Part shown: one piece after another, positions 27,784-44,822 of the stretch | Layout: each line of letters opens with the position of its first letter | Position numbering within the stretch: the first letter of the stretch is position 1 | Assembly (NCBI GenBank): GCA_000967895.1 | Contig: FO203512.1 | Location: forward strand, 4,215,531-4,279,530 | DNA from: Oleispira antarctica RB-8 | Lineage (GTDB): Bacteria > Pseudomonadota > Gammaproteobacteria > Pseudomonadales > Oceanobacteraceae | Direction of reading: 5' to 3' | DNA length: 64,000 nucleotides | The notes under the pieces: model-generated | Seen by the model: the letters and a program-made list of their open reading frames with translations, nothing else | What the model was told of the DNA's origin: nothing | The model's database searches: none | Translations under genes and position numbers: made by a program

Positions 27784-29610
27784 ATGAAGCAGTCAGAACC
27801 AGAGATCACGCATCCAAGGATGCTATCTCGCCGTCACTTCGTGCAAGGCTTAGCAGCAGGCGGGGTTATCGCATCTGCACCCAGCCTACTCCATGCGAAC
27901 GAGCAGAAACAGCGGACTCAACTGGGTACGGCGCCAGAGTTAAGCGGTGACGTTATCGAACTTGAAATTGCCCAGTTGCCGGTAAATTTTACCGGTGGTG
28001 CTCGCTTAGCCACAACCATTAATGGCTCGATACCCGCCCCTACCCTGCGCTTACGTGAAGGTGATGACGTCACAATTAAGGTGACGAATCGCTTATCGGT
28101 GCCCACTTCAATCCATTGGCACGGCATTATTTTGCCTTACCAAATGGACGGGGTGCCTGGTATTAGTTTCAAAGGCATTGCACCTGGAGAAACCTTCACC
28201 TACCAATTTAAGTTGCAGCAAAGCGGCACCTATTGGTATCACTCCCACAGTGGCTTTCAAGAAATGACCGGCATGTATGGCGCATTAATTATTGAGCCCC
28301 GCATCAAAGACACCGTGACTGCAGATCGAGACCATGTCGTGCTGCTATCAGACTGGACGGATGAAGACCCCATGGCGGTATTTGGCAAGCTGAAAGCACA
28401 AGGTGATTTTTATAATTTCAGCCAACCGACCGTCAGTGACTTTTTCAAAGATGTGTCTACACTCGGCTTTAGCGCCGCGCTCGATAAGCGCCAAATGTGG
28501 AATAGTATGCGCATGAGCCCCACAGACCTTGCCGACCTATCCTCCTCGGCCATTACGTATTTAATGAACGGCACTACCCCTGCGGGAAATTGGGCTGGCG
28601 TATTTAAGCACGGTGAGCGAGTACGCTTACGCTATATCAATGGATCCAGTAATACCTTTTATGATGTGCGCATTCCCGGTTTAAAAATGAGTGTGGTACA
28701 GGCCGATGGCCAGAATGTAAAACCGGTAACCGTTGATGAGTTTCGCTTTGGACCGGGTGAAACCTACGATGTTATCGTTGAACCAAAACAACAAGCGTAT
28801 ACCCTGTTTGCGCAAAGTATGGATCGCACCGGTTATGCTCGGGGCACCTTATCGATAGCGGCGGGTTTAACCGCGCCAGTACCGAAACTTGACCCCGTAG
28901 AATGGCTAGCCATGAAAGACATGATGGGTAAGATGGATCATGGCTCTATGGATATGAGTAAAGGAGAAATGGACCATAGCACCATGGATATGAGTAAAGG
29001 AGGAATGGACCATAGCACCATGGCTATGGATCACAGTCAGCATCAAATGAATCCAAACACCCATAATCCCTTAGCCATACCGTCACAAAAAGTGAATCAC
29101 GCAAAAACAGAATACGGTCCGTCGGTGGATATGCGCGTCGATATGCCACGCACTAACCTAGACGATCCAGGTATTGGCTTACGTAATAACGGCCGTCGAG
29201 TACTGACCCTGGCTGACTTGCATTCACGGGATGGCATCTTAGATGACCAACGTATACCAACACGAGAAATCGAACTGCACCTTACCGGTAATATGGAGCG
29301 CTATAGCTGGTCTTTTGATGGTTTAGAATTTGGTGAAAGCACCCCTGTGGCAATGAAACAAGGAGAGCGCATTAGGGTTATTTTGCAAAACGACACTATG
29401 ATGACTCACCCTATGCATTTGCATGGCATGTGGAGTGATTTAGAAAGCGATGATGGCACATTAACGGTGCGCCGCCATACTATTCAGGTACAGCCCTCGC
29501 AGCGTATTAGCTTTTTAACCACCCCCCACGATTTAGGACGCTGGGCATGGCATTGTCATTTATTGTTCCATATGGATGCGGGTATGTTCCGTGAGGTAGT
29601 TGTATCATGA
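27784..29610 (+). CDS. copA: Periplasmic multicopper oxidase CopA (PcoA type)
   Basis: This 608-aa copper oxidase is exported by Tat (SRRHFVQGLAAGG with the twin Arg) and probably oxidises Cu(I) in the periplasm. The four copper motifs are intact: SIHWHGIILPYQMDG, YWYHSHSGFQEMTG, THPMHLHGMW and WHCHLLFHMDAGMF. Between domains 2 and 3 (about residues 385-425) lies a Met/His-rich segment with near-tandem units (MDHGSMDMSKGEMDHSTMDM). ATG at 27784 is chosen because AGAGGG lies upstream; the open frame could start 11 codons earlier. It overlaps copB by four bases (ATGA). Confidence 0.95.
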   Translation: MKQSEPEITHPRMLSRRHFVQGLAAGGVIASAPSLLHANEQKQRTQLGTAPELSGDVIELEIAQLPVNFTGGARLATTINGSIPAPTLRLREGDDVTIKVTNRLSVPTSIHWHGIILPYQMDGVPGISFKGIAPGETFTYQFKLQQSGTYWYHSHSGFQEMTGMYGALIIEPRIKDTVTADRDHVVLLSDWTDEDPMAVFGKLKAQGDFYNFSQPTVSDFFKDVSTLGFSAALDKRQMWNSMRMSPTDLADLSSSAITYLMNGTTPAGNWAGVFKHGERVRLRYINGSSNTFYDVRIPGLKMSVVQADGQNVKPVTVDEFRFGPGETYDVIVEPKQQAYTLFAQSMDRTGYARGTLSIAAGLTAPVPKLDPVEWLAMKDMMGKMDHGSMDMSKGEMDHSTMDMSKGGMDHSTMAMDHSQHQMNPNTHNPLAIPSQKVNHAKTEYGPSVDMRVDMPRTNLDDPGIGLRNNGRRVLTLADLHSRDGILDDQRIPTREIELHLTGNMERYSWSFDGLEFGESTPVAMKQGERIRVILQNDTMMTHPMHLHGMWSDLESDDGTLTVRRHTIQVQPSQRISFLTTPHDLGRWAWHCHLLFHMDAGMFREVVVS

Positions 29611-30560
29611 AAAAAATTCAACGTATTCTAACTAAGAGAAGATTACTCGCACATGCGCTGACCCTTGCAGGTCTGGCTAGCAGCTCTGCAGTACTCGCAC
29701 AAGAAAGCGACATGCACTCAGGTCATGACATGGCCGCGATGCAAAATACACCCAAAGCAATGGATCATTCGAACATGGCCGGGATGGATCATGGCTCAAT
29801 GAATAGTAAGATGCAGCCTCAAGGCGGTGACGCCCCTAAAGACGCACGCGACCCTCACGCTTATTCCAATGGTTACACGCTAACGGCAGGCCCCTATGCG
29901 CAATCAGGTCCGCGCCAATTAAAGTTAGCCGATGAGCATGCTTTCTGGGCAGTGTTAGGAGATAGGCTCGAATACAATCCTGATACTGAAAGCACAGTAT
30001 TTGATTTACAAGCTTGGTATGGCACAACCTTCAATCGCTTAGTAATTAAAGCAGAAGGCGATATTGCCGATGGCAGCCTTGAAGAAATGCAAACCGATGT
30101 TTTATACAGCCAAGCTTTTTCCGGTTATTTCGATGCCCAGTTAGGTGTCCGTTTAGATCGAAATGAAGCGGGTACCGACAGGCAATGGCTAGCCGCCAGT
30201 GTGCAAGGTTTAGCGCCTTACTGGTTCGAAGTAGACGCTAGCGTCTATTTAGGAGAAGACGCTAGAACAGCCTTAGCTTTGCAAGCAGAATATGAATTAC
30301 TCTTTACCCAACGAATAATTTTGCAGTCTAGCGCCGAACTTACCGCTTATGGCAAAGAAGATTTAGACAATGGCATCGGCTCAGGCTTATCGAGCGGTAA
30401 ATTAGGTATGCGTCTACGTTATGAAATAAATCGTCAATTTGCCCCTTATGTGGGTGTGGAATGGGCTCGCAGTTTTGGCGATACCGCCGATCTTATGCGA
30501 AGCGCTGGCGGCTCTGTTGAAGATACAGAATATGTTGCAGGCTTACGGTTTTGGTTTTAA
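29607..30560 (+). CDS. copB: Copper resistance outer membrane protein CopB (PcoB type)
   Basis: This 317-aa protein has a signal peptide (ALTLAGLASSSAVLA) and then a Met/His-rich segment (MHSGHDMAAMQNTPKAMDHS and MAGMDHGSMNSKM). The remainder is beta-barrel, with alternating strands and a terminal phenylalanine (YVAGLRFWF). The PcoB/CopB family partners the multicopper oxidase at the outer membrane. The gene is translationally coupled to copA through the ATGA overlap. Confidence 0.93.
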   Translation: MKKIQRILTKRRLLAHALTLAGLASSSAVLAQESDMHSGHDMAAMQNTPKAMDHSNMAGMDHGSMNSKMQPQGGDAPKDARDPHAYSNGYTLTAGPYAQSGPRQLKLADEHAFWAVLGDRLEYNPDTESTVFDLQAWYGTTFNRLVIKAEGDIADGSLEEMQTDVLYSQAFSGYFDAQLGVRLDRNEAGTDRQWLAASVQGLAPYWFEVDASVYLGEDARTALALQAEYELLFTQRIILQSSAELTAYGKEDLDNGIGSGLSSGKLGMRLRYEINRQFAPYVGVEWARSFGDTADLMRSAGGSVEDTEYVAGLRFWF

Positions 30561-30574
30561 ATAAAGGAAATAAC

Positions 30575-31144
30575 ATGTCTATTACGAGTACAACCACCTA
30601 CATTAAACGCGTAGCCATTTTTATCAGCATTATGGTATTTGGCGCAGTCGCATTTCTCTATTCTGGTTTGTACCCTATGGGGGCCGATACGCCACACTTC
30701 CAAGCGACTACTTGGGCATTAGAAACGTTAAGAGAACAATCGATTGCCCGCGCCGCCAGTGACCTCATCGTACCAGAAGACATTGAAACCTCTGATCGTT
30801 TATTGGCAGGTGGGGCTGATTACAATGATATGTGTTCAAGCTGCCATCTTAAACCGGGGAAAACATCCAGCGACTTCACTTTAGGCTTATACCCTGCACC
30901 GCCTAACTTAGCCTTGAGTCACGCTGAACATCCTCATAGTGACAATGAAGAAGATGCCGATAAGCGCCGCTTTTGGATTATCAAACACGGCATTAAAGCA
31001 TCAGGCATGCCGTCTTGGGCACCTGGCCATGATGATGAGCGTATTTGGAATATGGTGGCGTTTCTTAAACGCTTACCGAAGTTAACGCCTGATCAATATC
31101 AGATTTTAACCGCGCGTGAAAAGGGATCTGCTGGGCATCATTAA
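30575..31144 (+). CDS. Membrane-anchored monoheme cytochrome c
   Basis: This 189-aa protein has an N-terminal membrane anchor (VAIFISIMVFGAVAFLYSG), one heme site Cys87-Ser-Ser-Cys90-His91, and a distal methionine candidate in KASGMPSWAPGH. ATG at 30575 follows AAAGGA by six bases. It lies directly after copB. It may pass electrons from, or to, copper oxidation by CopA; that coupling is inferred from position only. Confidence 0.85.
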   Translation: MSITSTTTYIKRVAIFISIMVFGAVAFLYSGLYPMGADTPHFQATTWALETLREQSIARAASDLIVPEDIETSDRLLAGGADYNDMCSSCHLKPGKTSSDFTLGLYPAPPNLALSHAEHPHSDNEEDADKRRFWIIKHGIKASGMPSWAPGHDDERIWNMVAFLKRLPKLTPDQYQILTAREKGSAGHH

Positions 31145-31249
31145 AATAACGTTTCACGTTAAAAATGTAGCCAAAAGTTTTAATTATTCGAGGTAAACCA
31201 AACTAGCGATAAAAGCTAATTTTTCTTCTTTTGACCGGCGTGACTTGAA

Positions 31250-32134
31250 TTATTTTTTGGGCGCGCTTGGTTTAGGTAAAACTGATATCACAACACCGAC
31301 AATTACAGTGACGACTCCCATCCATTGCCAAGGCGATAATGACTCCTCAAAATAAACCCCGCCAATTACCAAACCAAATATAGGGGTTAAAAAACTGAAT
31401 ATATTAAGCTGATTAAGAGGAGCTTTATCCATTAACCAAAACCAGATTAAAAAGGGAAGCGCTGTTCCTGGGATCGCGAGCATCATAAGAATAGCGAAGT
31501 AAGTTAGGTCCCAGCTCAACGCGGGGACTATTTTTATAGTAGGCACTAGTATCATTAGTGGAAGCGATCCGATAATCAGCTGCCCACTCATGGCATAGAA
31601 AATGTCTATTTGATTAGAATTCTTTTTTAATAAGACATTACTAATGGCAATACCTAGGGCCGCACAAACGATGTAGATAACGCCATAAACAGTATCCGCA
31701 TTATTATCTAATGCACCGTTGAGCCCAACAATGGCGATACCGGCAAACCCCAATAGAATACCGATAAGAACAAATCGATGGATGACTTCTTTGAGAATAA
31801 CGACAGCCAATAGACTGGCAATAAGCGGCTGAGTATTTGTTAGCACCGTTGCCAATCCTGGAGAGATCAGGCTGCCCGCGTAAAACATCCCCCAAAACCC
31901 AATCGTAGTCGCCGTAAAACCAATAACCGAGATGACCATCCAAGTATGGAATGATTTGGGGAAGGGCCGCCGCAAAACAAGGGCACATAGCAGCAAAAAT
32001 AGTCCTCCGAGCAGAGCTCGCAAAAAAGCTGTTTGCATCAAAGGGGCGTAAGGGATAGTTAATACTATTAATGGATAACAGATTGACCAAAGTAACATCA
32101 CTAGCGACGTTAAAAAAATAATGCGAACCATCAA
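31250..32134 (-). CDS. EamA/DMT-family transporter
   Basis: This 294-aa protein has ten predicted membrane segments in two EamA repeats (first ends near VVILKEVIHRFVLIGILLGF; second has PIFGLVIGGVYFEESLSPWQ). Substrate unknown; members export amino acids or metabolites. It is convergent with the cytochrome gene and not obviously part of the metal operons. Confidence 0.85.
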   Translation of the reverse strand: MMVRIIFLTSLVMLLWSICYPLIVLTIPYAPLMQTAFLRALLGGLFLLLCALVLRRPFPKSFHTWMVISVIGFTATTIGFWGMFYAGSLISPGLATVLTNTQPLIASLLAVVILKEVIHRFVLIGILLGFAGIAIVGLNGALDNNADTVYGVIYIVCAALGIAISNVLLKKNSNQIDIFYAMSGQLIIGSLPLMILVPTIKIVPALSWDLTYFAILMMLAIPGTALPFLIWFWLMDKAPLNQLNIFSFLTPIFGLVIGGVYFEESLSPWQWMGVVTVIVGVVISVLPKPSAPKK

Positions 32135-32295
32135 CGTTTTCCCTTCTATCTATCTATTTCACTCGCTCTAAAATTATCAGTTTATCGAAAGCTTTTTAAA
32201 GTAACCCTGCCGGCGATTAGTTCAGCTGTATTCCTCTCACATCTTTGATGTAAAATAAACAGATCCAATTACCGCTTCTTGCCCATTGAATTATC

Positions 32296-32793
32296 CTAAT
32301 GACATCCACCGTCTCTGGTAAGATGAGCCAGGTTGTCAAGCTCACACTCCTCATTATAATGAATCACGCCTCGCTTTATTTTATCCACTAGGCCATCACG
32401 CAGGCTGATAGCCACCTGTTCGATGATATTTTCAATATCTTCTAATGAGACTTGCAGAAGATCGTAGGTCACATAGAGATCTTGTCCTTCAAACACTAAG
32501 GCTTCAATTCCCATCAGTGCCTGAAGAGACTCTGTTATTGCTGCAGTGAGTTCTGCATCAAGCGCCTTAGAAAAACGTATTTTCCGCTTTTTAAATACTG
32601 TCTGTTTTTTTTGCTTAGGCGATAATCCACGCTGCGGATCACCCACAAATAAGTGGGGACGGTCTTTAAATCGATCCAAACATTGTGACGAACAGAAATA
32701 ATGATCGATACCCTGAAAGCTAAACAGTAGAGAGCGGTTAATTTTTGTCATACTACAAACAGGACAATGGATCGTGAACTCGATTTCACTCAT
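32296..32793 (-). CDS. TRASH/YHS-type zinc-ribbon plus degenerate HMA-like domain protein
   Basis: This 165-aa protein has an N-terminal treble-clef metal site, Cys10-Pro-Val-Cys13 and Cys34-x3-Cys38 (HYFCSSQC), as in TRASH/YHS domains. Residues about 75-140 have the fold pattern of a heavy-metal-associated domain (TESLQALMGIEALVFEGQDL, then VSLEDIENIIEQ) but no CxxC. The C-terminus ends GGCH. The second half is homologous to the protein at 39702-40070. Both lie just after a PII-like gene. It may sense or carry metal in the cytosol. Confidence 0.7.
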   Translation of the reverse strand: MSEIEFTIHCPVCSMTKINRSLLFSFQGIDHYFCSSQCLDRFKDRPHLFVGDPQRGLSPKQKKQTVFKKRKIRFSKALDAELTAAITESLQALMGIEALVFEGQDLYVTYDLLQVSLEDIENIIEQVAISLRDGLVDKIKRGVIHYNEECELDNLAHLTRDGGCH

Positions 32794-32986
32794 TAGAATT
32801 TCCTTATTTTACAGGCCACTGCCATTCAAGAATTTATATATTTCACTATCAGTGGTTATTACCAACATAGTACTGGGGTCAAATACAGACTGTAAACTTC
32901 AGGTGGTGACGTCAATCAATCCCAGCATCGCTAACTCTTTAGACATTAATAAGAAGGATGTTTTTTACTATATGTAATATTATGCC

Positions 32987-33325
32987 TCACCGATGTAATT
33001 GAAAATCATTACTCACTGCGCTTCGTTTATCATGTATCCAGATCAGGTCTTTGACAGGAGCAATGCAGACCAGTCCTTCACTTTCGGTATTAACATGCGC
33101 TGCATCCACAATCAACTGAGCAATTTCTTTCGCCTGCTCCGCATTGGCATAAATTTCAATTTGAATATGTTTGATCAAATGATTTTCATTAAAGCTGTCG
33201 AAGTAATCCCCGCGGCCACGAACAGGGTATAAGGTAAACCCCTTAACACCATGTTGAATTAAAGAATCCTCTACATTTTTTAGACGAAATTCGTCGAAAA
33301 TGGCAGTGATTTTGTTAATATTCAT
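32987..33325 (-). CDS. PII-like signalling protein, copy 1
   Basis: This 112-aa protein has the PII ferredoxin-like fold pattern: MNINKITAIFDEFRLKNVED, GFTLYPVRGRGDYFD, then HIQIEIYANAEQAKEIAQLI and the C-terminal VCIAPVKDLIWI. The T-loop is shorter than in GlnB. Such PII relatives are known beside heavy-metal RND pumps (PII-NG group) and may bind nucleotides or metal. It is followed after 193 bases by the TRASH/HMA-like gene on the same strand. A paralogue is at 40141-40458. Confidence 0.8.
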   Translation of the reverse strand: MNINKITAIFDEFRLKNVEDSLIQHGVKGFTLYPVRGRGDYFDSFNENHLIKHIQIEIYANAEQAKEIAQLIVDAAHVNTESEGLVCIAPVKDLIWIHDKRSAVSNDFQLHR

Positions 33326-33383
33326 TTGGTACTCCCGTTTATCTCACCATAATTTGTTCAGCAGCAATGTGTCGCGAATAGGT

Positions 33384-33641
33384 TTATGAATCAAGACGAT
33401 TGTAAATAGATGCAAGTATCCAACCCATAGCGCCAGCCATCACAAACCAACCCACCATTCCAACAGCAACGCCAAATACTGACAAGTGCCAATTCATGTC
33501 ACGTAGCTCCATGTGAACCATATCACCAGACATCGACATCATCATTTCGGGCATAATAATAACTAGCACACTGCAAATCAGCCAAAGAATAGAAGCGCTA
33601 ATTGAAGATGCCAAACCAAATTTCATTGCATTAAGTTTCAT
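33384..33641 (-). CDS. DUF5676-type small membrane protein
   Basis: This 85-aa protein has two membrane helices (about residues 10-30 and 53-76), separated by a Met-rich loop (MPEMMMSMSGDMVHMELRD). The end YNRLDS and overall plan fit the DUF5676 family, often found in metal-resistance islands. It has the same orientation as the PII-like gene, with 58 bases between them. Confidence 0.75.
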   Translation of the reverse strand: MKLNAMKFGLASSISASILWLICSVLVIIMPEMMMSMSGDMVHMELRDMNWHLSVFGVAVGMVGWFVMAGAMGWILASIYNRLDS

Positions 33642-33675
33642 AATACTTCCTCAGTGTGTTTAAGAATTAAATCCA

Positions 33676-34134
33676 TTACATATCGTCAAAACGGTTAGTA
33701 GCCTGCACCATTATCATAGTTTCATGTTCCTCAAAAAAACTTAATGCATCCAAAAGCTCTTTTGCAGAAGGAATAGCAGCCTGCATAGATAAAAAACGAA
33801 ATAGAGACAATAAATACTGATGTTTTTTTACAACTATAGCGACAATTTGCTGGGCATTAAGGTCAGAAAATGGTCTATCACAGAATTCACCATGATCTAG
33901 CTTGAATTTATTTACATATTCAACACACCAAGTATTTAGCGCATGCTCATTTCCTTTTTTTTCAAAAACATCTACAACTTTAGCTATCTCACTTTCATGA
34001 TTAGATAGATAGGATAAAACTAATTTCGCTCGCTCATCTTCATTATCTTTTTGGCACATAGATAAGCACTCACTGAGTTCTGAATGCACCCCTCTAGTCC
34101 AGCGAACCACATCTCTTAAAGTCTCAACTTCCAC
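33676..34134 (-). CDS. Ferritin-like/helical-bundle protein of unknown function
   Basis: This 152-aa all-helical protein has SNHESEIAKVVDVFEK and FFEEHETMIM, where Glu and His could form a metal site like that of ferritin-like proteins. GTG at 34134 is chosen because AAGGAG ends six bases upstream; the TTG two codons earlier abuts that site. It lies 34 bases before DUF5676 on the same strand, so they are probably co-transcribed. The ferritin-like reading is an inference from helix pattern. Confidence 0.55.
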   Translation of the reverse strand: MEVETLRDVVRWTRGVHSELSECLSMCQKDNEDERAKLVLSYLSNHESEIAKVVDVFEKKGNEHALNTWCVEYVNKFKLDHGEFCDRPFSDLNAQQIVAIVVKKHQYLLSLFRFLSMQAAIPSAKELLDALSFFEEHETMIMVQATNRFDDM

Positions 34135-34216
34135 AACCAACTCCTTCTTCTAGGCTTAATGTTCATTTATTATCGATAATTTTATATCCGCACTAAGTGC
34201 CGACGATATAAAATCA

Positions 34217-35563
34217 TTATTTATCTGAATGCATATGCTCATGTTTATTACTCTTTCTTACAACTGATCGTAAGAATATAGTTTCGCCCACCGCAATGAC
34301 AATCATCGTTAAAAGAGCGACTATTAATACATATGGATCAGAATTTAACTTAACCCAAACGAATCCTATTAAGACTAATAGATCTAAAATTATGGCGGTA
34401 ATAGGTACCCATTTCTTCGCATTGACATCTTTCAATAGGTAACGAAGCAGCCCCCAATGAATTGAGATATCCATAATTAGATAAAACACGATGCCGAGAG
34501 CGGCTATACGGGATAGATCAAAGAATGCAGTAAGTATAATTCCTAAAGCAGCGGTATATACCAAGGTATGCTTTTGTATATTTCCTGGCATACCGAAGTG
34601 ACTATGAGGAATTAATTTCATCTCGGTTAACATCGCCAGCATACGGGACACTGCAAATGAACTTGCTAAAACTCCTCCAGCAGTTGCAGTCATAGCAATA
34701 GCAACAGTAAACCATACTCCAAACTCTCCAAGAACAGGCCGAGATGCTGCCGCTAGGGAATAGTTTTTTGTCGCTATGATTTCACTTAAAGGAAGATTGC
34801 CAGCGACAGCAAAACCGACCAATACATAAATAAGTACACAGAGCGCAATAGAAATAACAATAGCCCTACCAATGTTTTTATGAGGGTTAACTACCTCAGA
34901 GCCACTATTTGTTATAGTGGTAAATCCTTTAAAGGCTAAAATCCCCAAAGCCGTTGCACCCAAAAAATTACTTAACGTTCCAACTTCAGCGGTAGCATCA
35001 AGATCGACAGCCAAATTATCAGCAAGATAAACGCCAACGAAACCAATAATAAGAATGCCTAATATTTTAGCTAGCCCGATAAATCCAGCGATTCCCTGAA
35101 TAAGACGATTGCCGAGTAAATTAATAATAAACGCTACCACTATTAGCGATACGCCTAATATAGATATGATATTACCAGAGTCATCACCGCCAAATAATTG
35201 CATCGTATAGGATCCAAAGGTACGCGCTAAAAAACTTTGAGCGATCACCATCGAAAAATACATAAGTAATGCATTAAAAGCAGTGGGTAACCTATTTCCA
35301 TAAGCTTTATGCAAATACATACCAACCCCTCCCGCAGAAGGATAGGCATTGGATATTTTGATGTAAGAGTAGGAACTGAATGCCACGATTATGGCTGAGG
35401 CAATGAATGCATAAGGAAATAAAGCTCCAACCATTTCAGCCATTTGCCCTGTCAATGCAAAGATCCCAGCACCGATCATAACGCCAGTCCCTAACATGAC
35501 AGTACCTGCAAGGGTTAAGCTACCTTTATCATAATTTGTATTTCGATTTTGTTTATTAAGCAT
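34217..35563 (-). CDS. APC-family amino-acid permease
   Basis: This 448-aa protein has twelve membrane segments and the APC signature in TM1 (GTGVMIGAGIFALTGQMAEM), then AYPSAGGVGMYLHKAYGN in TM2-3. A short basic/His C-terminal tail (SNKHEHMHSDK) is present. Substrate unknown. It lies among metal genes, oriented with the ferritin-like gene, so it may share their transcript. Confidence 0.85.
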   Translation of the reverse strand: MLNKQNRNTNYDKGSLTLAGTVMLGTGVMIGAGIFALTGQMAEMVGALFPYAFIASAIIVAFSSYSYIKISNAYPSAGGVGMYLHKAYGNRLPTAFNALLMYFSMVIAQSFLARTFGSYTMQLFGGDDSGNIISILGVSLIVVAFIINLLGNRLIQGIAGFIGLAKILGILIIGFVGVYLADNLAVDLDATAEVGTLSNFLGATALGILAFKGFTTITNSGSEVVNPHKNIGRAIVISIALCVLIYVLVGFAVAGNLPLSEIIATKNYSLAAASRPVLGEFGVWFTVAIAMTATAGGVLASSFAVSRMLAMLTEMKLIPHSHFGMPGNIQKHTLVYTAALGIILTAFFDLSRIAALGIVFYLIMDISIHWGLLRYLLKDVNAKKWVPITAIILDLLVLIGFVWVKLNSDPYVLIVALLTMIVIAVGETIFLRSVVRKSNKHEHMHSDK

Positions 35564-35634
35564 TACATTCCCTCAAAAATAGCAACGGGATTTTTTATTA
35601 ACATCCATTACTTCCAAAGATTATTTTCAATGAT

Positions 35635-36273
35635 TTAGGTTTTAAAATTTAATCTAGGAATCCACGCGGGTGTGATTTCCATATACTGACGATAGGTATC
35701 ACCAAATTCCTCTAGCGCGATACTTTCTTCCCGTTTGGCTAAACGCACATAGACTACGAGTAAAATTGGAAACATGACCAGTGTCGGTATAGTTGGCCAT
35801 TGTAATAAAAATCCAAACATAATTATGATGAAAGCAATGTATTGCGGATGACGACAGCGGGCGTACCAGCCAGTAGTCGCCAAGGAGTGAGTTTGCTGAG
35901 CTTTATGTAAGACACTCCAAGCAGATGACAACAAAAAGAAGCCTGCAATTATAAATACATTACTGGCGATATGCAGTGGGTCAAAATGTGCATTACCTTC
36001 AAAACCAAGCAAGGTATGAAGTAAATGTCCGTTATCATGGGCTAAAAAATCTATCCCCGGATAATTTTCGGCCAACCAACCTGACAGAAAATAGATGGTT
36101 AACGGAAAGCCATACATCTCGGTAAACAGCGCTACAATAAACGCTGAAAAGGCACCAAAACTGCGCCAGTCCAATGTTGTTTTTGGTTTTGTAAAACTAA
36201 ACGCAAAAAAAATGAAAATTGCAGAGTTAATTATTACTAAAGGCCACAGGCCATAATCTGATTCACCATGCAT
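35635..36273 (-). CDS. Isoprenylcysteine-methyltransferase-like membrane protein
   Basis: This 212-aa protein has five or six membrane segments. The C-terminal motif is typical of ICMT/PEMT families: TGWYARCRHPQYIAFI, then EESIALEEFGDTYRQYM. The cofactor is presumably SAM; the substrate in bacteria is unknown. It is the last gene of the set P-type ATPase, cupredoxin, DUF2933 and this methyltransferase, which share one strand with 10-51 base gaps. Confidence 0.8.
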   Translation of the reverse strand: MHGESDYGLWPLVIINSAIFIFFAFSFTKPKTTLDWRSFGAFSAFIVALFTEMYGFPLTIYFLSGWLAENYPGIDFLAHDNGHLLHTLLGFEGNAHFDPLHIASNVFIIAGFFLLSSAWSVLHKAQQTHSLATTGWYARCRHPQYIAFIIIMFGFLLQWPTIPTLVMFPILLVVYVRLAKREESIALEEFGDTYRQYMEITPAWIPRLNFKT

Positions 36274-36308
36274 ACTATTTCTCCTTTACCTTGAGCATAA
36301 ATGCTCCA

Positions 36309-36599
36309 TTATTGATGGTGATCTTTTTTTGTATGCTTATCATCTACTGGCTGCACCGTATCGCGGCCATCTTTTAGTCCCCGCTGATATTCATCGCCAT
36401 CTTCGTTACTCTTATGATGACCATGACCTTTATGCATAAACATATGCATAAAGGGACACGCCAGAAGTATCAAAAATGGAAGGTACTGCCAGACATGTTC
36501 ACTGTGTTCCATTAGCAGGAAATAGCTGGCTGCGCCAATAAGTCCCAAAGCGGCTAGACCTTTTGGGCTTAGCCAAAAGGATGCTTTTTTATTGCTCAT
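36309..36599 (-). CDS. DUF2933-type small membrane protein
   Basis: This 96-aa protein has two short membrane helices (GLAALGLIGAASYFLLMEH and YLPFLILLACPFMHMFM), followed by a His-rich cytoplasmic or periplasmic tail (HKGHGHHKSNEDG, ending KKDHHQ). The family accompanies copper ATPases. It is 10 bases before the cupredoxin gene in the operon. Confidence 0.8.
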   Translation of the reverse strand: MSNKKASFWLSPKGLAALGLIGAASYFLLMEHSEHVWQYLPFLILLACPFMHMFMHKGHGHHKSNEDGDEYQRGLKDGRDTVQPVDDKHTKKDHHQ

Positions 36600-36609
36600 A
36601 GTATTTCTC

Positions 36610-36963
36610 CTATTGAACCGTTATTTGCCCACGGTACATTTGCATCTGACAATGAAAGTCATAGCTTCCTGCTTTCATTGCAGGAAGCTGAATAGTTTTT
36701 AATTTATTATGCGGCAGTAAATCACTGATTTGTAAATCAGGAATTAATAAAGTCTCCGAGCAAGGCGACTGATCTTTGCGCAAAAAATTTATTTCTACTG
36801 GGTTACCCGCTGCGACTGAAATCCTTGACGGGGAGTAGGTGCCGTTTTCAACGGTAATGATAATCCCCTGCTCTCCTACTTTGGTTTCTTCTGGTTTATA
36901 CAGCCAGAACCACCACACAATTAAGCCAATCAATAACAAACCCATGAGGTTAATAATCATCAT
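36610..36963 (-). CDS. Membrane-anchored cupredoxin-like protein
   Basis: This 117-aa protein has an N-terminal membrane anchor (LMGLLLIGLIVWWFWLY) and a cupredoxin domain: VENGTYSPSRISVAAGNPVE, then QSPCSETLLIPDL, and the C-terminal ligand loop GSYDFHCQMQMYRGQ. His, Cys and Met candidates suit a copper site. It is co-transcribed with the P-type ATPase and may receive exported copper. Confidence 0.85.
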   Translation of the reverse strand: MMIINLMGLLLIGLIVWWFWLYKPEETKVGEQGIIITVENGTYSPSRISVAAGNPVEINFLRKDQSPCSETLLIPDLQISDLLPHNKLKTIQLPAMKAGSYDFHCQMQMYRGQITVQ

Positions 36964-37014
36964 AATAAAATCTCCTACGTCCTATAATGTTCAGTTAATG
37001 TTTATCTATTTTGA

Positions 37015-39549
37015 TTAGTGCTCTTCCGCTTTAAAAAAGCGTAAACGGTTAGCATTACTGACCACGGTTAATGATGAAAATGCCATTGCGGCGCCTGCGA
37101 TAACTGGGCTGAGTAACACACCAAAGAAGGGATATAGGATGCCCGCGGCAAAAGGCACACCCGCCACGTTGTAAATAAAAGCTCCGAATAAGTTTTGCTT
37201 AATATTACTAAGCGTGGCTTTACTCACCGCAATCGCGTCTGCCAAACCATGCAGTGATCCCCGCATTAAGGTAATATCAGCACTTTCAATAGCGACATCG
37301 GTCCCTGTACCAATAGCAAAGCCTACGTTGGCAATGGCAAGCGCTGGCGCATCATTAATGCCATCCCCTGTCATGCCCACAATCTCACCCTGCATTTGCA
37401 ATTCTTGTACTTTTTCAGATTTTTGTTCCGGCAGTACTTCAGCAAAAAACTCAGTAATTCCTACTTTCTTAGCGACAGCTTTTGCAGTATCTCGATTATC
37501 ACCGGTAAGCATTACGACTCGAATGCCATTTTTTTGTAGACGCTTAATGGCCGCGATGGAGTCTTCTTTGATGGGATCGGCGACGGCGATGATAGCGGAA
37601 AATTTATTATCAATAGCAAAGAACATTGGGGTTTTGGCTTCAGCGGCTAAGGCTTGAGCTTTTTCAACAAAATCACCCAATTCAATACCTTTCTCATGCA
37701 TTAGTTTTTCATTACCAAAGAGTAAGGTTTTACCATCCACTTCGGCCTGCACACCATGACCTGCAATCGCTTTAAAGTTACTGGCTTTACCAATGCTTAG
37801 CCCAGACTCTTGCGCAGACTCCACAATCGCCATGGCTAACGGATGCTCCGAACCACTTTCTAATGTGGCTGATAATCTCAAAACAGTGTCTTCGTCAAAC
37901 TCTCCGGCTAATACCACATCAGTAACCTTTGGAGCCCCTAAAGTGATGGTGCCTGTTTTATCTAGAATCATGGCTGTGATTTTTGATGCGGTTTGCAAGG
38001 CTTCACCATTACGGATCAAAACCCCGGCTTCGGCCGCTTTACCAACGCCAACCATTACCGACATCGGCGTCGCAAGCCCAAGCGCACAAGGGCAAGCAAT
38101 AATAAGTACGGTAGTCGCCGATATAATGGCGTAGGCGATTACGGGCTCAGGCCCAAAGTTCAACCAAATTAAAGCGCTGGTGACTGCAATAATCATCACG
38201 ACAGGCACAAAATAAGCGGAGATAACATCTGCCATACGACCAATCGGCGGCTTTGAGTTTTGCGCGCGCTTCACCATATTAATGATCTGCGCTAGCGCTG
38301 TATCTTTACCGACCCGAGTCGCTTTGAATAAGATAGAGCCGGTTTTATTAATAGTACCTGCGACGACTTCTGCCCCGACAGTTTTTTCTACCGGCATAGA
38401 TTCACCCGTCAGCATCGATTCATCAATCGCGGTATGACCTTCAATCACTTTGCCATCCACAGAAATTTTTTCACCGGGTCGAACGCGAACCACATCGTTC
38501 AGCAGCACTTGATCAATAGCGATGTCGACTTCAATGCCATCACGAATGACCCGCGCAGTTTTAGGCTGCAATCCGATAAGACGTTTAATGGCTTCAGAAG
38601 TACGACCACGGGCTTTCAACTCCAGCGCCAAACCTAAATTAATTAAACCAATAATCATTGCCGTCGCTTCAAAATAAACGTGGCGAGCCATTTCTGGCAC
38701 TGCTTCTGGGGCAAAAACAACCACCATGGAATAAAGCCATGCGGTACCGGTACCCAGTGCGATCAATGTATCCATATTGGCGGAATGATTTTTGAATGAC
38801 TGCCAGGCGCCAACATAAAAGTGCTTACCCGAAAATACCATCACCCCTAACGTTATCAGCCCGACAACCAGCCAAGCCAACTGCTCTGATATCGTGCTCA
38901 CCGTCATTTCGCCCACGACAAGGCCGTAGACCATAAGAGGGATACCGACTGCCAACGCGATGGTCATTTCACGCATAAGGCGCTTGTAATAAACTTCGTC
39001 AGCAATTTCTTTTTCGTTTAAAGCCTCGTCCTCATTTTCAGCGGTACTCACTTTGGCATTGTAGCCAGCTTGTTCTACCGCTTTAATCAAATCTAACTGT
39101 TTTGCTGTACCTGTAACCGTCACGGTACGCTGAGCAAAGTTCATTTCTGCACGACTAACCCCAGCTACTTGTTTTAAAGCCGATTCGATTTTATTGACAC
39201 AACTTCCACAACTTGCGCCGTCTATGAGCAGCTCTATTTCAGAACCGTCAAAACTGCCTTTCACTTCAGTTTTTTCATCTAAAGTATCACTCTCAAATTC
39301 TTCCGTACTCATCTTGGCACTGTAACCAGCCTGCTCTACAGCCGTGATCAAATCCAATAGTGTTGCTGCGCCTACAACCTTCACAGTGCGCTGAGCAAAG
39401 TTCATTTCTGCCTGGGTCACCCCACTAACTTCTTGTAAGGCTGATTCAATTTTTTTCACACAACTTCCGCAATTTGCACCATCAATTAAAAGCTTTATTT
39501 CTGAAAGGGTCGAGTTACTTTCCACCTCATTCACATTAGACACCGTCAT
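37015..39549 (-). CDS. copA: Cu(I)-translocating P-type ATPase with two HMA domains
   Basis: This 844-aa P1B-type ATPase exports cytosolic Cu(I). Two tandem HMA domains bind copper at Cys27/Cys30 (GANCGSC) and Cys114/Cys117 (GASCGSC). The core has the transport motif [12 protein letters not shown], phosphorylation [25 protein letters not shown] and [11 protein letters not shown]. Eight membrane segments are expected. The two HMA domains are close duplicates of each other at protein level. A CueR-type operator lies upstream at 39605-39635. This is not the same protein as the multicopper oxidase also called CopA. Confidence 0.96.
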
Positions 39550-39604
39550 TATTTAATTCCTTACTCAATTAGTTCAGAGTGCAACTAAGCACACTTTTAA
39601 TTAA

Positions 39605-39635
39605 AAGGTACACCTATGTCCTAGACATAGGTCAA
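39605..39635 (-). promoter_or_regulatory. CueR-type promoter/operator upstream of the Cu P-type ATPase
   Basis: On the minus strand TTGACC (39635-39630) and TACCTT (39610-39605) are 19 bp apart. A perfect inverted repeat at 39612-39632 has arms ACCTATGTC and GACATAGGT around CTA. This is the MerR/CueR architecture. No CueR gene is in the window, so the regulator must be elsewhere. Confidence 0.82.
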
Positions 39636-39701
39636 GCACATAGTTTTATCATTCGCAGATTTTCTTCTAATACGATGTGTAATGATTTTCATGAATCACC
39701 T

Positions 39702-40070
39702 TCATTTCTTTTTCTTTCCGGTAAGCGGATTTGAATGGCACGACCATGGGGTGTCTTTGATATTTGCCTTTATATTTTCATCAGTATATTCGTACCAGCT
39801 TTTCTTAGTATTGTTCCACCAATCTTTTGCAACACTGATGAAATGATTATCTAATATACTTTCAACATCCTCTAAGCTTTTATAGGATGCATCATAGGAC
39901 ACGGTTATTGTATGTTCATCTTTAACAAGAACGACCTCATCAATTCCAATAATCCTATCAATCTCTTTTTCTATACAATCCCAAGGTACATCACCATCAC
40001 CTTCCAGCTTTAAATGACGCTTAACTAAATAATTAGTATTTATTGTCGCTTTATGTTTCTTTTCACTCAT
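39702..40070 (-). CDS. Degenerate HMA-like protein paired with PII-like copy 2
   Basis: This 122-aa cytosolic protein has the secondary-structure pattern of a heavy-metal-associated domain (IEKEIDRIIGIDEVVLVKDE, then YKSLEDVESILDNHF) without CxxC. It ends in a conserved-looking TPWSCHSNP. It is homologous to the second half of the protein at 32296-32793, but lacks the Cys-rich N-terminal domain. It lies directly downstream of the PII-like gene at 40141. Function unknown. Confidence 0.65.
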   Translation of the reverse strand: MSEKKHKATINTNYLVKRHLKLEGDGDVPWDCIEKEIDRIIGIDEVVLVKDEHTITVSYDASYKSLEDVESILDNHFISVAKDWWNNTKKSWYEYTDENIKANIKDTPWSCHSNPLTGKKKK

Positions 40071-40140
40071 GATCTTTCCTCTACTATATGAAAGACTTCA
40101 AAAATTTAAATAATATAAAATTACTATTTATTACACTTAG

Positions 40141-40458
40141 CTAATTAAGTTTTAATTTTCTAGAACAGCCAAAGAGTCCTTCAATAGGTTCTATAGATAC
40201 TAGAAATTTATCGCTATCATTAACAGATACCACTGACTCGATCAAACGCGCAACTTTCTTTGCGTGCTCCGCATCTACGTATATTTCAATTTGGGTATGC
40301 TTAATTAAAAGATAGCTATTAGCGTTACTATTACCTGAACTCGCTCCGACACAATGAGTTGAAAAGCCAGAGGCTGCATAGGCCCTTAATGCTTCCTGTA
40401 CATCCTTAAGCCTAAGCTCATCAAAAATAGCACTCACTTTTTTAATTTCCATACTCAA
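40141..40458 (-). CDS. PII-like signalling protein, copy 2
   Basis: This 105-aa PII-like protein resembles the one at 32987-33325 in both ends: VSAIFDELRLKDVQEALRAY and HTQIEIYVDAEHAKKVARLI, then VSIEPIEGLF. The T-loop region (CVGASSGNSNANSYL) is unlike copy 1 and lacks the GRG motif, so ligand binding may differ. It is followed by the HMA-like gene after 70 bases, mirroring the first pair. Confidence 0.75.
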   Translation of the reverse strand: MSMEIKKVSAIFDELRLKDVQEALRAYAASGFSTHCVGASSGNSNANSYLLIKHTQIEIYVDAEHAKKVARLIESVVSVNDSDKFLVSIEPIEGLFGCSRKLKLN

Positions 40459-40564
40459 CCTTAATTAAATATCAGTTGTAACTGAAAGATATTATGTCCA
40501 TGAGCTATGTCGGAGCCACTTTTAGCAGAAAAGTGAAGATAACAAGGCTATCAAAACTCACGAA

Positions 40565-40873
40565 TTACTTATGGCTATGACCTTCATACATTTTTCCAGG
40601 TACATCACCATTCATATCCATTTTCTCAGTTTTTTTCATGCCTTTCGAATCCATGCTGTGCATTTGATTCATGCACTTTTTCATCATTGCTTGAGTCACT
40701 GGATCATTCATATCCATTTTTGAATGGTCCATTGTTTTCATCATTTCGCAATTTGCCATCTCAGATCCTTCAGCGTGCTCTGCTGGATCGTGAGCATGAA
40801 CGGATGCTACTAGGAACATCATTGGTATTGCTGTTGAGATTACAGACCATTTTGACTTGTTAGTTAATTTCAT
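40565..40873 (-). CDS. Met/His-rich periplasmic copper-binding protein
   Basis: This 102-aa protein has a signal peptide ending SVHAHD. The mature part is rich in Met and His (MANCEMMKTMDHSKMDMND and MMKKCMNQMHSMDSKGMKK), with a tail YEGHSHK. This composition indicates Cu(I) or Ag(I) buffering in the periplasm. It is divergent from copRS, with the CopR-like box between them, so it is probably copper-induced. Confidence 0.75.
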   Translation of the reverse strand: MKLTNKSKWSVISTAIPMMFLVASVHAHDPAEHAEGSEMANCEMMKTMDHSKMDMNDPVTQAMMKKCMNQMHSMDSKGMKKTEKMDMNGDVPGKMYEGHSHK

Positions 40874-41022
40874 TTTCTTTCCCTTTTGTTTTTCATTTTA
40901 TTTGTTGATAAGCCTAGCTTACTCTACACCCTAGATACAAAGGTACTGACACCGAGATGACTAGAGAACCTAAAGACTAAATTCAGCTTACCCCCATATA
41001 ACTGTCCTAAAGATGACTGCAG

Positions 41023-41042
41023 CATTACAAAAATGTCATATT
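41023..41042 (+). promoter_or_regulatory. CopR/CusR-type box between the Met-rich gene and copRS
   Basis: CATTACAAAAATGTCATATT differs from the box upstream of copA (27676-27695) at only two central positions. It sits 107 bases before copR and 150 bases before the divergent gene at 40873, so it could control both and provide autoregulation. Confidence 0.75.
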
Positions 41043-41148
41043 CATGTAATCTAACTGACAGTTCTTATACTCTATACTCATTCTTTAGCATCACGTCTAA
41101 AGAGCTCCTTATTTGAAGAACCCTTGCCTAGAGAGTAGCGGACCTAAA

Positions 41149-41829
41149 ATGAAATTATTAGTCGTAGAAGATGAGATTAAAACGGGACAATACCTTAAGA
41201 AGGGGCTTTCTGAAGCTGGATTAATTGTGGATCTAGCGTGCACCGGCATGGACGGTCACCACCAAGCAGTTACCGAAAAATATGACCTCATTATTCTAGA
41301 CGTAATGCTGCCTGACATTGATGGCTGGCACATATTAAAAACCCTGCGCAGCAATGGAGATTTAACCCCCGTTCTATTTTTAAGCGCCAAAGATAGCACC
41401 GAGGATAAGGTTAAAGGCTTAGAGCTAGGGGCCGATGATTACCTTGCCAAGCCCTTCGTATTCGCTGAACTGTTAGCAAGAGTAAGAACGCTACTAAGGC
41501 GCGGCATACCCAATCAAGAGCTTGATACATTAACCATTGCCAATATGACTCTCGACCTCAAACGCCGCTCTGCAATAAGAGAGGGTCAACGAATTAACTT
41601 AACCAATAAAGAGTTTTCGTTGCTCGAGCTATTATTAAGAAGACAAGGCGAGGTATTACCGAGATCGCTTATAGCGTCCCAAGTTTGGGATATGAATTTT
41701 GATAGTGATACCAATGTAATCGATGTCGCCATTCGAAGGTTACGCTCAAAGATAGACTCCAACTTTCAGCCGAAATTAATACATACCGTTCGTGGCATGG
41801 GCTATGTCCTTGAGGCATACAATGAGTAA
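41149..41829 (+). CDS. copR: Copper-responsive OmpR-type response regulator CopR/CusR
   Basis: This 226-aa regulator has a receiver domain with the phosphoryl site in [17 protein letters not shown] and Lys in DYLAKPF, and a C-terminal winged helix with [18 protein letters not shown] at 41149 ([13 protein letters not shown]) gives the usual length; the frame is open further upstream but the extra residues are not family-like. It overlaps copS by eight bases. It presumably binds the two boxes at 27676 and 41023. Confidence 0.92.
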
Positions 41830-43264
41830 TAAAGCCTCCAGTAACAAAACAAGAAGACCCATGTCTCTTGTCATGAATGTGACGATTAGAGTGGGCATAA
41901 TAATATCCTTATGCTTCATCGCACTTGGCTTTGCCGTACAGCAATCGATCCACCATCATTTTTTAGAGCAAGATGCCGATGAGCTTCACGTTATTGAGAC
42001 GACCGTGAAAAGTGCACTTAACCAAGCCATTAACGGTTCAGATAATCCGTTATTGAGCCGCGAAGAGTTGAAAGTCTATTTAGAGAATACAATCTCAGGG
42101 CATCACGGTGTCTATTTTGCAGTTTTTGATCATGCGCAGCAGCTACTTTATAAAAATGGCGAGCTTGATTTTCAACCCTTAATCGATAACAACCACATCA
42201 ATAAATCAGTGACACCTAAGACGTTATATTCTTGGGATACCCCAGATCATAACTATTGGGGAACTCTGCTTGCGACTAAACTCTACTCAAGTGACCCTAA
42301 AAAAACATGGATCATCGCGGTAGCGGCACAAACTGATTTTCATCATTCATTTATGACCACTTTTTTTAGAACGCTCTGGTCTTTAATGGTTCTTGCCAGC
42401 TTATTAACAACGTTTGCCGCTTGGCTCGCCATTCGAAACGGACATAGACCCTTACATCAAATAAGCACAGAAATTAAAAGCATTACCTCCGAGCAATTAA
42501 ATCGTCGTTTAAATACTCATAACATTCCGCCAGAATTGCTTGAACTGGTTGAATCTTTTAATACCATGATCACCTCCATGGACTCTGTCTTTCAAAAACT
42601 GTCACACTTTTCTGCCGATATTGCCCACGAACTTCGCACACCGATAACCAACCTTTCAACACAAACACAAGTGGCACTGAATCAAGCTAGGTCAACGGCA
42701 GAATATCAAGAAATACTCTATTCCAATCTAGAAGAATACAATCGACTTAACACGATTGTCAGAGACATGCTGTGGCTAGCTAAAACAGACAACAATATTT
42801 TAACGCTAGAAAAAACAGAACTGGATATTAAGAAGGAAGTTGAAAACTTATTTGATTATTTTGAAGCTTGGGCAGAAGAACAAAGTATCAGCTTAAAAGT
42901 ACAAGGCGATACATTAAACATTCAAGCCGATAAAAACTTAATTCAACGAGCACTAAGCAATCTTTTAACCAATGCCATACGTCATGCGTCACCCAATACC
43001 GCTGTTACCATAATATTAGAGAGTACTGATAATACGGTTCATATTACGGTTAAAAACATAGGTTCAATAATTTCTAATGAGCATATCGATCGTATTTTTG
43101 ACCGTTTTTATCGCATAGATCCGTCTAGGCAGCGACATTTTTTGAATGAGGGAATTGGCCTTGGGCTATCGATTGTGCAATCGATCGTTCAAGCTCATAA
43201 AGGCAGCATAAATGTCACCTCTGGTAATGAAGAGACCAGCTTTACTCTTATCTTTCCTAAATAA
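41822..43264 (+). CDS. copS: Copper-sensing histidine kinase CopS/CusS
   Basis: This 480-aa kinase has TM1 ([17 protein letters not shown]), a periplasmic sensor region with several His residues ([16 protein letters not shown]), TM2 ([17 protein letters not shown]), HAMP, the phospho-acceptor box ([16 protein letters not shown]), and the ATP-binding [10 protein letters not shown] and [12 protein letters not shown] at 41822 overlaps the copR stop (ATGAGTAA). It matches heavy-metal sensor kinases. Confidence 0.92.
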
Positions 43265-43307
43265 CAGTAATTGCACAACGAGTTAAATCTATCGGTAGCG
43301 CTATCCA

Positions 43308-43432
43308 CTACAGAATAACCCTCTCCACAAACCCTTGAATTTGCTTATTAACAACCTCTGCCTGCTCAGCAAATACCATGTGCGTACCAGTCTTAATAAC
43401 TGAATCGCCCCCTAGTTCACTAAAAGCTCATC
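43308..43432 (-). pseudogene. C-terminal remnant of an alpha/beta hydrolase
   Basis: Read on the minus strand, the frame gives ELGGDSVIKTGTHMVFAEQA and then VVNKQIQGFVERVIL before a stop. This is the usual end of alpha/beta hydrolases, with the catalytic His in GTHMVF. Nothing of the nucleophile region remains and stops occur upstream. It is a decayed fragment. Confidence 0.6.
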
Positions 43433-43574
43433 CGGTGCTAGCAATTTAGACTTGGGATGGCTGCAGGGTTTGGATTGTTAAAGTTAAGCTGGTTTTCTAT
43501 TTTAGCTATTCGAAAAATCAGAATTAAATCGAGCTAAGTATAATACCCGTCGCTTCTCTATGGAGGTAAATACA

Positions 43575-43925
43575 ATGACTTACTACATTATAAAGGTATT
43601 GATCACAGCAGCTCTAATAGTCCTCATCGCAGAGGTTTCAAAGCGTAGCAGCTTTATAGGAGCGGTACTTGCGTCTGTTCCTCTGACATCGACATTAGCA
43701 ATGCTTTGGCTTTACATCGATACAGGAAGTGTCGATAAAGTCAGCGAGCTAGCGAGTAGCGTATTTTGGCTAGTTCTCCCGTCATTAGCATTATTCCTTA
43801 CTTTACCGATCCTCTTGTCTCAAGGGATAGGATTTTACCTGAGTCTTTCAATATCTATCATAGTAACCGCTGCATGTTACTTTCTCATGATTATGGTTTT
43901 ACGATATTGTGATGTGCCCCTCTAA
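43575..43925 (+). CDS. DUF3147-type membrane protein
   Basis: This 116-aa protein has four hydrophobic segments (ALIVLIAEVSKRSSFIGAVL fits DUF3147; then LAMLWLYID, LVLPSLALFLTLPILL and the C-terminal segment). ATG at 43575 follows GGAGGT by seven bases, a strong site. Function unknown; it may be a small inner-membrane transporter-like protein. Confidence 0.75.
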   Translation: MTYYIIKVLITAALIVLIAEVSKRSSFIGAVLASVPLTSTLAMLWLYIDTGSVDKVSELASSVFWLVLPSLALFLTLPILLSQGIGFYLSLSISIIVTAACYFLMIMVLRYCDVPL

Positions 43926-44003
43926 ATTTTAGGCTATTACCAGCACTTCTTTACAACTTTGATTGTTATATTGTTGTCAACTTCATAACTGTGAATATTA
44001 AAG

Positions 44004-44386: not shown

Positions 44387-44388
44387 GA

Positions 44389-44815: not shown

Positions 44816-44822
44816 TGAGGCC

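Follow-up and report, generated by a model that had tools for sequence, protein, structure and literature searches.

The stretch of 64,000 nucleotides analysed here, referred to as the window in the following, comes from the genome of Oleispira antarctica RB-8 (contig FO203512.1, positions 4,215,531 to 4,279,530) and contains a copper island in which genes for PII-like proteins are followed, at two places, by genes for small proteins with a divergent heavy metal-associated (HMA) domain. A sequence-only reading had noticed this order on one strand and suggested that the genes might form a metal-status signalling module. Both pairs are real: they lie in one copper island on the minus strand, where PII1 is followed after ~190 bp by a partner that we call YHS-HMA, and PII2 after ~70 bp by a partner that we call the HMA-like protein (Table 1). 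PII proteins are textbook sensors of nitrogen, carbon and energy, and we know of no PII protein that takes its input from a dedicated metallochaperone-like partner. A recurrent and compact partner gene offers a concrete hypothesis for what informs the metal-associated members of this family, and the repeated pairing of PII and HMA-like genes in the copper-resistance clusters of bacteria from several groups may point to partners in copper sensing that could control metal pumps. The likely main advance of this work is that a family of HMA-like proteins with a CC or CH tail has been identified whose genes recur beside those of metal-associated PII proteins. The sequence-only interpretation is partly supported by the genome comparisons described below, in which the pair is recurrent but not fixed.

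The P-type ATPase of the island heads a gene run of which PII1 and then YHS-HMA are the last genes, and PII2 and then the HMA-like gene precede the ATPase, with a predicted MerR/CueR-type promoter in between. The pump part of the island comprises an RND pump (ACR_tran), a CusB-type adaptor with two CusF domains, an outer-membrane efflux protein and DUF411; further genes encode a multicopper oxidase, CopB, and a CusS-type sensor kinase with its response regulator, alongside the P-type ATPase with two HMA repeats, a permease, a cupredoxin, DUF2933, an isoprenylcysteine carboxyl methyltransferase (ICMT)-like protein and DUF5676. The ATPase gene run shares its core with the merR-copA-cupredoxin-DUF2933-ICMT cluster of marine bacteria, for which a published table lists Oleispira antarctica RB-8 genes (PMC8478169); that text contains none of the terms PII, P-II or 'heavy metal-associated', and the PII and HMA-like members are added here. 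The same island is found in an Oleispira metagenome-assembled genome (MAG; locus L039), with proteins 80-100% identical to those of the window, nearly all of them at least 90%.

Table 1. Genes and regulatory features of the two PII/HMA-like pairs and the gene run between them, in window coordinates.
Feature	Position	Strand	Remark
Small Met/His-rich protein, apparent signal peptide by sequence reading	40565..40873	-	upstream of PII2
PII2, PII-like, degenerate (conserved G39 and B-loop G84 replaced)	40141..40458	-	in-frame ATG at 40452
HMA-like partner of PII2, 122 aa, no CxxC, WSCH close to C-terminus	39702..40070	-
MerR/CueR-type operator-promoter, predicted by sequence reading	39605..39635	-	between HMA-like gene and ATPase
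Heavy-metal P-type ATPase, two HMA repeats, copper type judged from relatives	37015..39549	-	annotated relative in L010 76% identical
Cupredoxin-like protein	36610..36963	-	PII1 comes after the cupredoxin gene in most relatives
DUF2933 protein	36309..36599	-
ICMT-like protein	35635..36273	-
Amino-acid/APC-type permease	34217..35563	-
hyp154, recurrent in these operons, no Pfam family	33676..34140	-
DUF5676 protein	33384..33641	-	immediately upstream of PII1
PII1, short T-loop, PII-NG-like, 112 aa	32987..33325	-
YHS-HMA-like partner of PII1, 165 aa: YHS/TRASH four-Cys domain and divergent HMA-like domain, GGCH end	32296..32793	-

PII1 matches the Pfam family P-II (PF00543) with 53.4 bits (E 3.6e-14, cut-off 25), and PII2, which shares 42% identity with it (E 5e-24), reaches 22.6 bits (E 1.4e-4); because the latter score lies below the cut-off, membership holds for PII1 only. 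Neither protein matched CutA in the Pfam and NCBIfam scans, no protein of either pair exceeded a cut-off in the NCBIfam scan, and the closest solved structures by sequence are ordinary PII proteins (best 2eg1, E 8.9e-8). The sequence-only reading had likened the pairs to PII-NG, a PII-domain protein distinct from GlnB and GlnK that is encoded beside RND heavy-metal efflux genes, and whose gene in Geobacter (GSU2134) is the first of a cobalt-induced czcABC operon (PMC7726332). This likeness fits, judged from genomic context and loop anatomy, with the reference sequences (GSU2134) entering by description only. As for context, CusA is encoded within 8 kb in 20 of the 39 PII loci of our class sample (see below), and the window has CusABC-like genes in the same island, about 11-14 kb from PII1; canonical PIIs stand on a branch apart. 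The accessible part of the PII-NG account mentions no HMA-like partner, and in the literature consulted, likewise in part, we found no established ligand or target for the PII-NG branch.

As for anatomy, canonical GlnB and GlnK proteins carry Q39, K58, Y51 in the T-loop region and a TGxxGDGKI B-loop (PMC6516651). Taking residue roles from this source and from general knowledge, we compared 70 different PII-NG-like sequences with 8 canonical PIIs. The stretch between G39 and E57, which holds the T-loop, has 17 residues in all 70 and 24 in all 8. The Gln39/Lys58 pair, present in every canonical sequence, is replaced by Tyr/His in 43 of the 70, and His occupies the Lys58 column in 50; the B-loop reads GDG in 37 and SEG or SDG in 17, and Lys is found at the K90 position in none (one sequence has a gap there). 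PII1 follows this pattern with Y and H at Q39 and K58, SEG in place of GDG in the B-loop and no Lys at K90, and together with its short T-loop stretch this places it outside the canonical GlnB/GlnK type. PII2 has G, H and DKF at Q39, K58 and the B-loop, S at G39 and F at the B-loop G84. Given the replacements at Q39, K58, K90 and in the B-loop, unchanged canonical nucleotide binding appears unlikely for PII-NG-like proteins, which could still bind some nucleotide. In the PII tree (see below), five canonical PIIs form their own branch (support 100/100).

On the side of the partners, the two HMA-like proteins had been taken for homologs, and a profile search bears this out: they align pairwise with 29% identity over 66 residues (E 5e-7), and their family profiles match in hhalign over 103 columns, tail included (probability 98.3, E 1.9e-14). 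The relationship to true HMA domains (PF00403) is weak but recurs, which suggests a remote kinship: 7 of 13 family members match at E<=1 (best 4e-5), the best of them with 24.4 bits at a cut-off of 24.8 and the window member with 18.1 bits, and the family profile aligns with true HMA domains in hhalign (probability 89.5, E 2e-6). A search of the PDB with the two HMA-like proteins gave no match better than E 0.06. The TRASH-like four-Cys domain reported for one partner corresponds to the part of 32296-32793 ahead of the HMA-like domain, which holds CPVC...CSSQC; the window protein reaches 27.1 bits against Pfam YHS (E 4.1e-6, below the cut-off of 30.3, with all four Cys in place), and three relatives exceed that cut-off (31.6-42.3 bits). 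The hallmark of the family lies at the other end, where 51 of 52 different HMA-like sequences (some of them close copies) carry CC or CH near the C-terminus, commonly as (A/S)CCN(K/R)PP, and the lone exception ends in HHH. In the window, GGCH forms the very C-terminus of YHS-HMA, as had been noted; WSCH, described in the same way, is followed by 10 further residues. The statement that neither partner has CxxC is correct for the HMA-like domain, which lacks this metal-binding motif, and incorrect for YHS-HMA, given the CPVC of its YHS/TRASH part. Across the family, CxxC occurs in the searched stretch of 5 of the 52 sequences, four of them showing the CPxC of the YHS part and the fifth (L026) being an Oleispira copy of the window protein. 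A simple pattern recognized YHS-type Cys in 13 of 52, which is too few, since L120, L238, L241, L242 and L245 also have a YHS-type N-terminus. From their sequences, the proteins with an HMA-like domain and a CC-N-K/R-P-P or CH tail appear as a recognizable family for which Pfam and NCBIfam gave no name here; plasmid-borne members are annotated as 'hypothetical protein' or 'cation transporter'. They resemble CopZ/HMA copper chaperones in having an HMA-like domain, divergent by profile, and in being encoded with a copper-type P-type ATPase, but differ from them in the missing CxxC at the HMA position, the conserved CC/CH tail and the optional YHS domain.

Outside Oleispira too, the two families are found side by side, with either gene first and in several taxonomic families. 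Neither of the outcomes that the sequence-only reading had named as refuting its view, partners unrelated by profile search or a lack of adjacency in further genomes, was therefore observed. In a class-level sample of 369 genomes, a profile of the PII1 family matched 82 genomes at E<=1e-9, of which 40 were counted (E<=6.3e-12), and a combined HMA-like profile matched 129 at E<=1e-5, of which 38 were counted (>=60 bits). At these limits, both families occur in 21 genomes (Fisher p 1.7e-13, to which shared copper islands and ancestry contribute), and the genes are immediate neighbours in 10 of them (the window, G126, G174, G214, G300, G302, G328, G332, G340 and G402), G214/G328 and G302/G402 being same-genus pairs and the PII gene of G300 being truncated. 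In five of the remaining 11, the genes lie 10-22 kb apart on one contig (G162, G171, G287, G293, G327); in the other six they are on different contigs (G134, G155, G274, G276, G291, G295). The truncated case (L121:7277-7941) looks like a cluster copy in decay, in which a 43-residue PII remnant precedes the HMA-like gene and a further HMA-like fragment comes after it. In phylum-level samples (398 genomes for HMA-like, 396 for PII), PII matches of at least 108 bits were obtained in 21 genomes, the window included, and the next match, at 79 bits, is where canonical PIIs start; G689 has a partial PII-NG-like match of 75 bits. Thirteen of the 21 also have an HMA-like match of at least 59 bits, in each case with one such match on the PII contig, and the genes are adjacent in 8 of the 13, namely in the window and seven genomes of family f244 (G644 and some gaps being judged by match coordinates), and 1.4-9.5 kb apart in the other five. 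Altogether, adjacency with an intact PII is found under eight family codes (f1, f79, f127, f133, f167, f172, f181, f244) and with a truncated one under a single code, f130.

The adjacency was compared with that of other genes of the same islands. Among 39 class loci with a PII of at least 85 bits (L106 and L119 from one genome, the truncated G300 locus left out, some loci cut by contig ends), a gene was counted as adjacent if it came next on the same strand and its matched domain began after a gap of no more than 200 bp. Eight of these loci have an HMA-like gene within 8 kb, and it adjoins PII in 7 of them; in the eighth (L134), the two genes are 101 bp apart by gene ends. The corresponding counts are 6/20 for CusA, 6/16 for the copper ATPase, 0/12 each for CusB and MerR, 0/9 for TolC, 0/4 each for DUF411 and the multicopper oxidase, and 0/3 for CopB. 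In a shared island of the class sample, PII thus has the HMA-like gene as its immediate same-strand neighbour more often than any other type of island gene in the count. Wherever a PII and an HMA-like gene were retrieved in one locus, they share a strand, and the spacing of adjacent pairs is mostly tight: 11 of the 15 adjacent pairs outside Oleispira range from an 8-base overlap to a 36-base gap, two are ~20 bases apart by matched coordinates, and two lie at 45 and 101 bases. PII comes first in the window, L120, L121, L134 and L136, and the HMA-like gene in L106, L107, L129, L135, L139 and L238-L243. On a PII tree of 74 rows and 108 columns, many forks of which are unresolved, adjacency (14 rows adjacent, 48 not) needs at least nine changes, and therefore the adjacent arrangement came and went repeatedly. 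The tree used 10 of the 20 loci that a scan of genome contigs with the PII alignment had yielded (L121, L132, L135, L243 and others were dropped as copies, fragments or duplicates); the change count excluded 7 rows at contig ends or otherwise unclear, and L230, a partial, low-scoring PII of f244 that groups with the PII-NG-like rows, was excluded from both change and residue counts.

These observations support a functional linkage, suggested by sequence and context, between a PII-NG-like protein and a small protein that looks metal-binding. Several others weigh against it. The score limits of the class sample were chosen after the hit lists had been seen, and if all HMA-like matches at E<=1e-5 are admitted, both families occur in 37 of the 40 PII genomes and adjacency falls to 10 of 37, the matches of 30-60 bits being possibly a wider family or true HMA domains. 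In 31 of the 39 class loci, some of them cut by contig ends, no HMA-like gene was found within 8 kb of the PII-NG-like gene, and HMA-like genes also exist where no PII was found. Adjacency in the phylum samples comes, outside the window, from the single family f244, and in the phylum control, made on 13 of the available loci chosen largely for having both genes, the counts are 6/10 for HMA-like, 3/6 for MerR, 2/6 for the copper ATPase and 2/11 for CusA. The genes are adjacent in none of the 14 PII1-ortholog loci outside Oleispira (L040-L053), which include Haliea, a Cycloclasticus MAG, Alcanivorax nanhaiticus, Pseudohongiella, Thalassolituus, Kangiella and Psychromonas: there, the HMA-like gene is on the same strand 0.87-2.93 kb away, DUF2933 follows PII1 in 13 of 14 and a cupredoxin gene precedes it in 12 of 14. 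The genes are apart in L032, L033 and L244 as well; L034, L054 and L058 yielded no HMA-like gene, none is annotated in L055-L057, and among the 20 scanned loci, both pairs occur only in that of Oleispira (L039). A fixed HMA-like partner, which the sequence-only reading had contemplated, finds no support in these 14 loci or in the 31 class loci, and for the merR-copA gene cluster we rejected the idea that the pair is fixed or ancestral. The pairing in Oleispira looks secondary, with PII1 placed unlike in its relatives, beside YHS-HMA, and with PII2 as a fast-diverging relative beside the HMA-like gene. Of the plasmid records, 18 match the HMA-like protein and 6 match PII1, with no record common to both, and a plasmid search with PII2 gave no match.

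Two alternatives draw on this pattern. The HMA-like protein could serve the P-type ATPase as a CopZ-like chaperone or buffer of Cu(I), and the PII protein could separately regulate a pump; the genes would then lie together because of their common service to the exporter, without contact between the two proteins. Non-adjacency within one gene cluster in all 14 ortholog loci outside Oleispira would suit such independent tools, as would HMA-like genes beside copper ATPase, ICMT or multicopper oxidase/CopB genes without a PII and PII-NG-like genes beside CusA or the copper ATPase without an HMA-like gene. CopZ-type chaperones normally carry CxxC, however, which the HMA-like domain lacks, and within 8 kb the HMA-like gene adjoins PII more often than the copper ATPase or CusA do in the class loci; we consider this alternative rather unlikely. 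It is less probable still that there is no functional link at all, and that adjacency arises as a mere by-product when genes are shuffled and operons trimmed in mobile copper islands. The islands are indeed rearranged, Oleispira PII1 is placed differently than in its relatives, the other PII1-clade loci examined show no adjacency, and beyond the window the phylum samples add f244 alone; yet such a by-product would have to account for eight family codes with an intact PII and f130 with a truncated one, for both orders and for the mostly tight spacing. Under random placement in a 20-gene island, 10 of 21 would have a binomial p of 2e-5 (p 0.009 for a 10-gene island), a rough null with non-independent genomes.

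Also to be weighed against the linkage is the state of PII2, which has lost conserved loop residues and may be non-functional. It is quite possible, if somewhat short of an even chance, that the second Oleispira pair is decaying and that the double pattern of the window overstates conservation, which would be compatible with the other alternatives. The S at G39, the F at the B-loop G84 and the long terminal branch of PII2 (1.76) point this way, as does the restriction of its close copies to the window and the near-identical island of one other Oleispira genome (L026/L039); on the other hand, both Oleispira genomes have PII2 as an open frame (98% identical), and the conserved residues of the family are retained in the adjacent HMA-like protein. 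A further alternative, which we regard as the least probable, is that the PII-like protein is itself a CutA-like metal binder, with the HMA-like protein as a mere donor or acceptor. CutA1 has a PII-like fold and has been linked in the literature to copper tolerance. The window proteins match Pfam P-II and not CutA. One CutA study, cited in PMC9240420, reportedly argues, going by its title, against a metal role for CutA. His in the Lys58 column of 50 of the 70 PII-NG-like sequences would suit metal binding, and so would Cys after the last strand, of which at least two are present in 9 of the 70 and at least one in 18 (0 of 8 canonical); yet such Cys are confined to part of the group, and PII1 has none in its tail. 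The authors of the Geobacter study propose that PII-NG senses metal inside the cell (PMC7726332). The two-Cys tail (e.g. KC-x4-C) is seen in the PII-NG-like proteins of L105, L106, L107, L128, L133, L134, L138, L141 and L143.

Against this background, we return to a linkage between the two proteins. A short-T-loop PII group is often encoded near copper P-type ATPases and CusA/CzcA-type pumps, and a gene that recurs next to it encodes, by sequence, a divergent HMA-like protein with a CC/CH tail, without CxxC in the HMA-like domain and in some cases with a YHS/TRASH domain at the N-terminus. We tentatively suggest, at less than even confidence, that each pair could be a cytosolic two-protein adaptor of copper islands that reports metal status and acts on the neighbouring exporter, which is how we would now phrase the signalling module of the sequence-only reading. 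Our evidence consists of sequence and genome comparison, and every step past co-location is one that we infer: the HMA-like protein would bind Cu(I) or another thiophilic metal via its Cys/His tail and, where present, its YHS Cys; it would dock on the PII trimer and pass on metal status; and the metal-dependent complex would set the activity of the exporter, either trimeric CusA, where present, or the P-type ATPase. The mode might be that of GlnK-AmtB or SbtB-SbtA, with copper status as the input, replacing nucleotides or acting beside them. These systems likewise use small PII-family proteins, and GlnK is encoded next to the transporter that it regulates (PMC10710835). Here, by contrast, the T-loop stretch falls 7 residues short of the canonical length, Q39, K58 and K90 of PII1 are replaced, a chaperone-like third party is present, and the exporter as target is suggested by gene neighbourhood. 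The most specific version, in which the CC/CH-tailed protein is a copper receptor docking on a short-T-loop PII trimer and PII is a post-translational copper-status gate on RND or P-type exporters, together an undescribed system, appears unlikely as a whole. Within the literature searched (openly licensed PMC papers), no description of a PII/HMA-like pair was found, and publication elsewhere is possible.

Further features of the window and related loci concern regulation and gene content. The predicted MerR/CueR-type promoter consists of TTGACC, a 19-bp spacer with a perfect 9-bp inverted repeat (39612-39632) and TACCTT. Despite its position ahead of the copper ATPase, no MerR gene was noticed among the open reading frames of 28000-46000; a MerR-type gene lies at 15685-16179, adjoining a CDF-type transporter by sequence reading. 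An Rfam scan of 26000-46000 and a search of viral contigs returned nothing useful, and scans for promoters (22 against 26.7 expected) and terminators (12 against 7.2 expected, standard deviation 2.7) were uninformative. The CusB-type adaptor (21934-23721) has its two CusF-type copper-binding domains at the C-terminus and an HMBD close to the N-terminus. Two PII candidates were set aside: the 266-residue PII frame of L132 is not a fusion, as it runs on from an upstream frame with a stop inside the PII part, and the PII of L252 (Haliovirga) adjoins an ammonium transporter and was not regarded as copper-linked.

In merR-copA loci (L028:12309-19984, L040:13996-20336, L144:3827-11983 and others), the cluster runs on into genes for a pyrimidine/AMP-phosphorylase-like protein, PRPP synthetase, a beta-CASP metallo-hydrolase, acetate kinase (partial in L028) and a phosphoketolase-like protein; none of the genes from phosphorylase to phosphoketolase was seen in window positions 28000-46000. 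In Alcanivorax-type loci (L054:8062-18367, L056:202-10242, also L055 and L057), a PII-like gene stands ahead of a complex-I-like gene set, comprising chain 3, a 49-kDa-like protein fused to a heavy-metal-binding HMBD, NADHdh, three antiporter-type subunits and, last, hyp154. The latter protein (best Pfam E 0.022 in the window) occurs both in copper gene clusters and in the complex-I-like set. Lastly, on plasmids of Paraburkholderia and Caballeronia (L251, L253), a PII-NG-like gene is found amid genes for a multicopper oxidase, a high-potential iron-sulfur protein and Dsb proteins.

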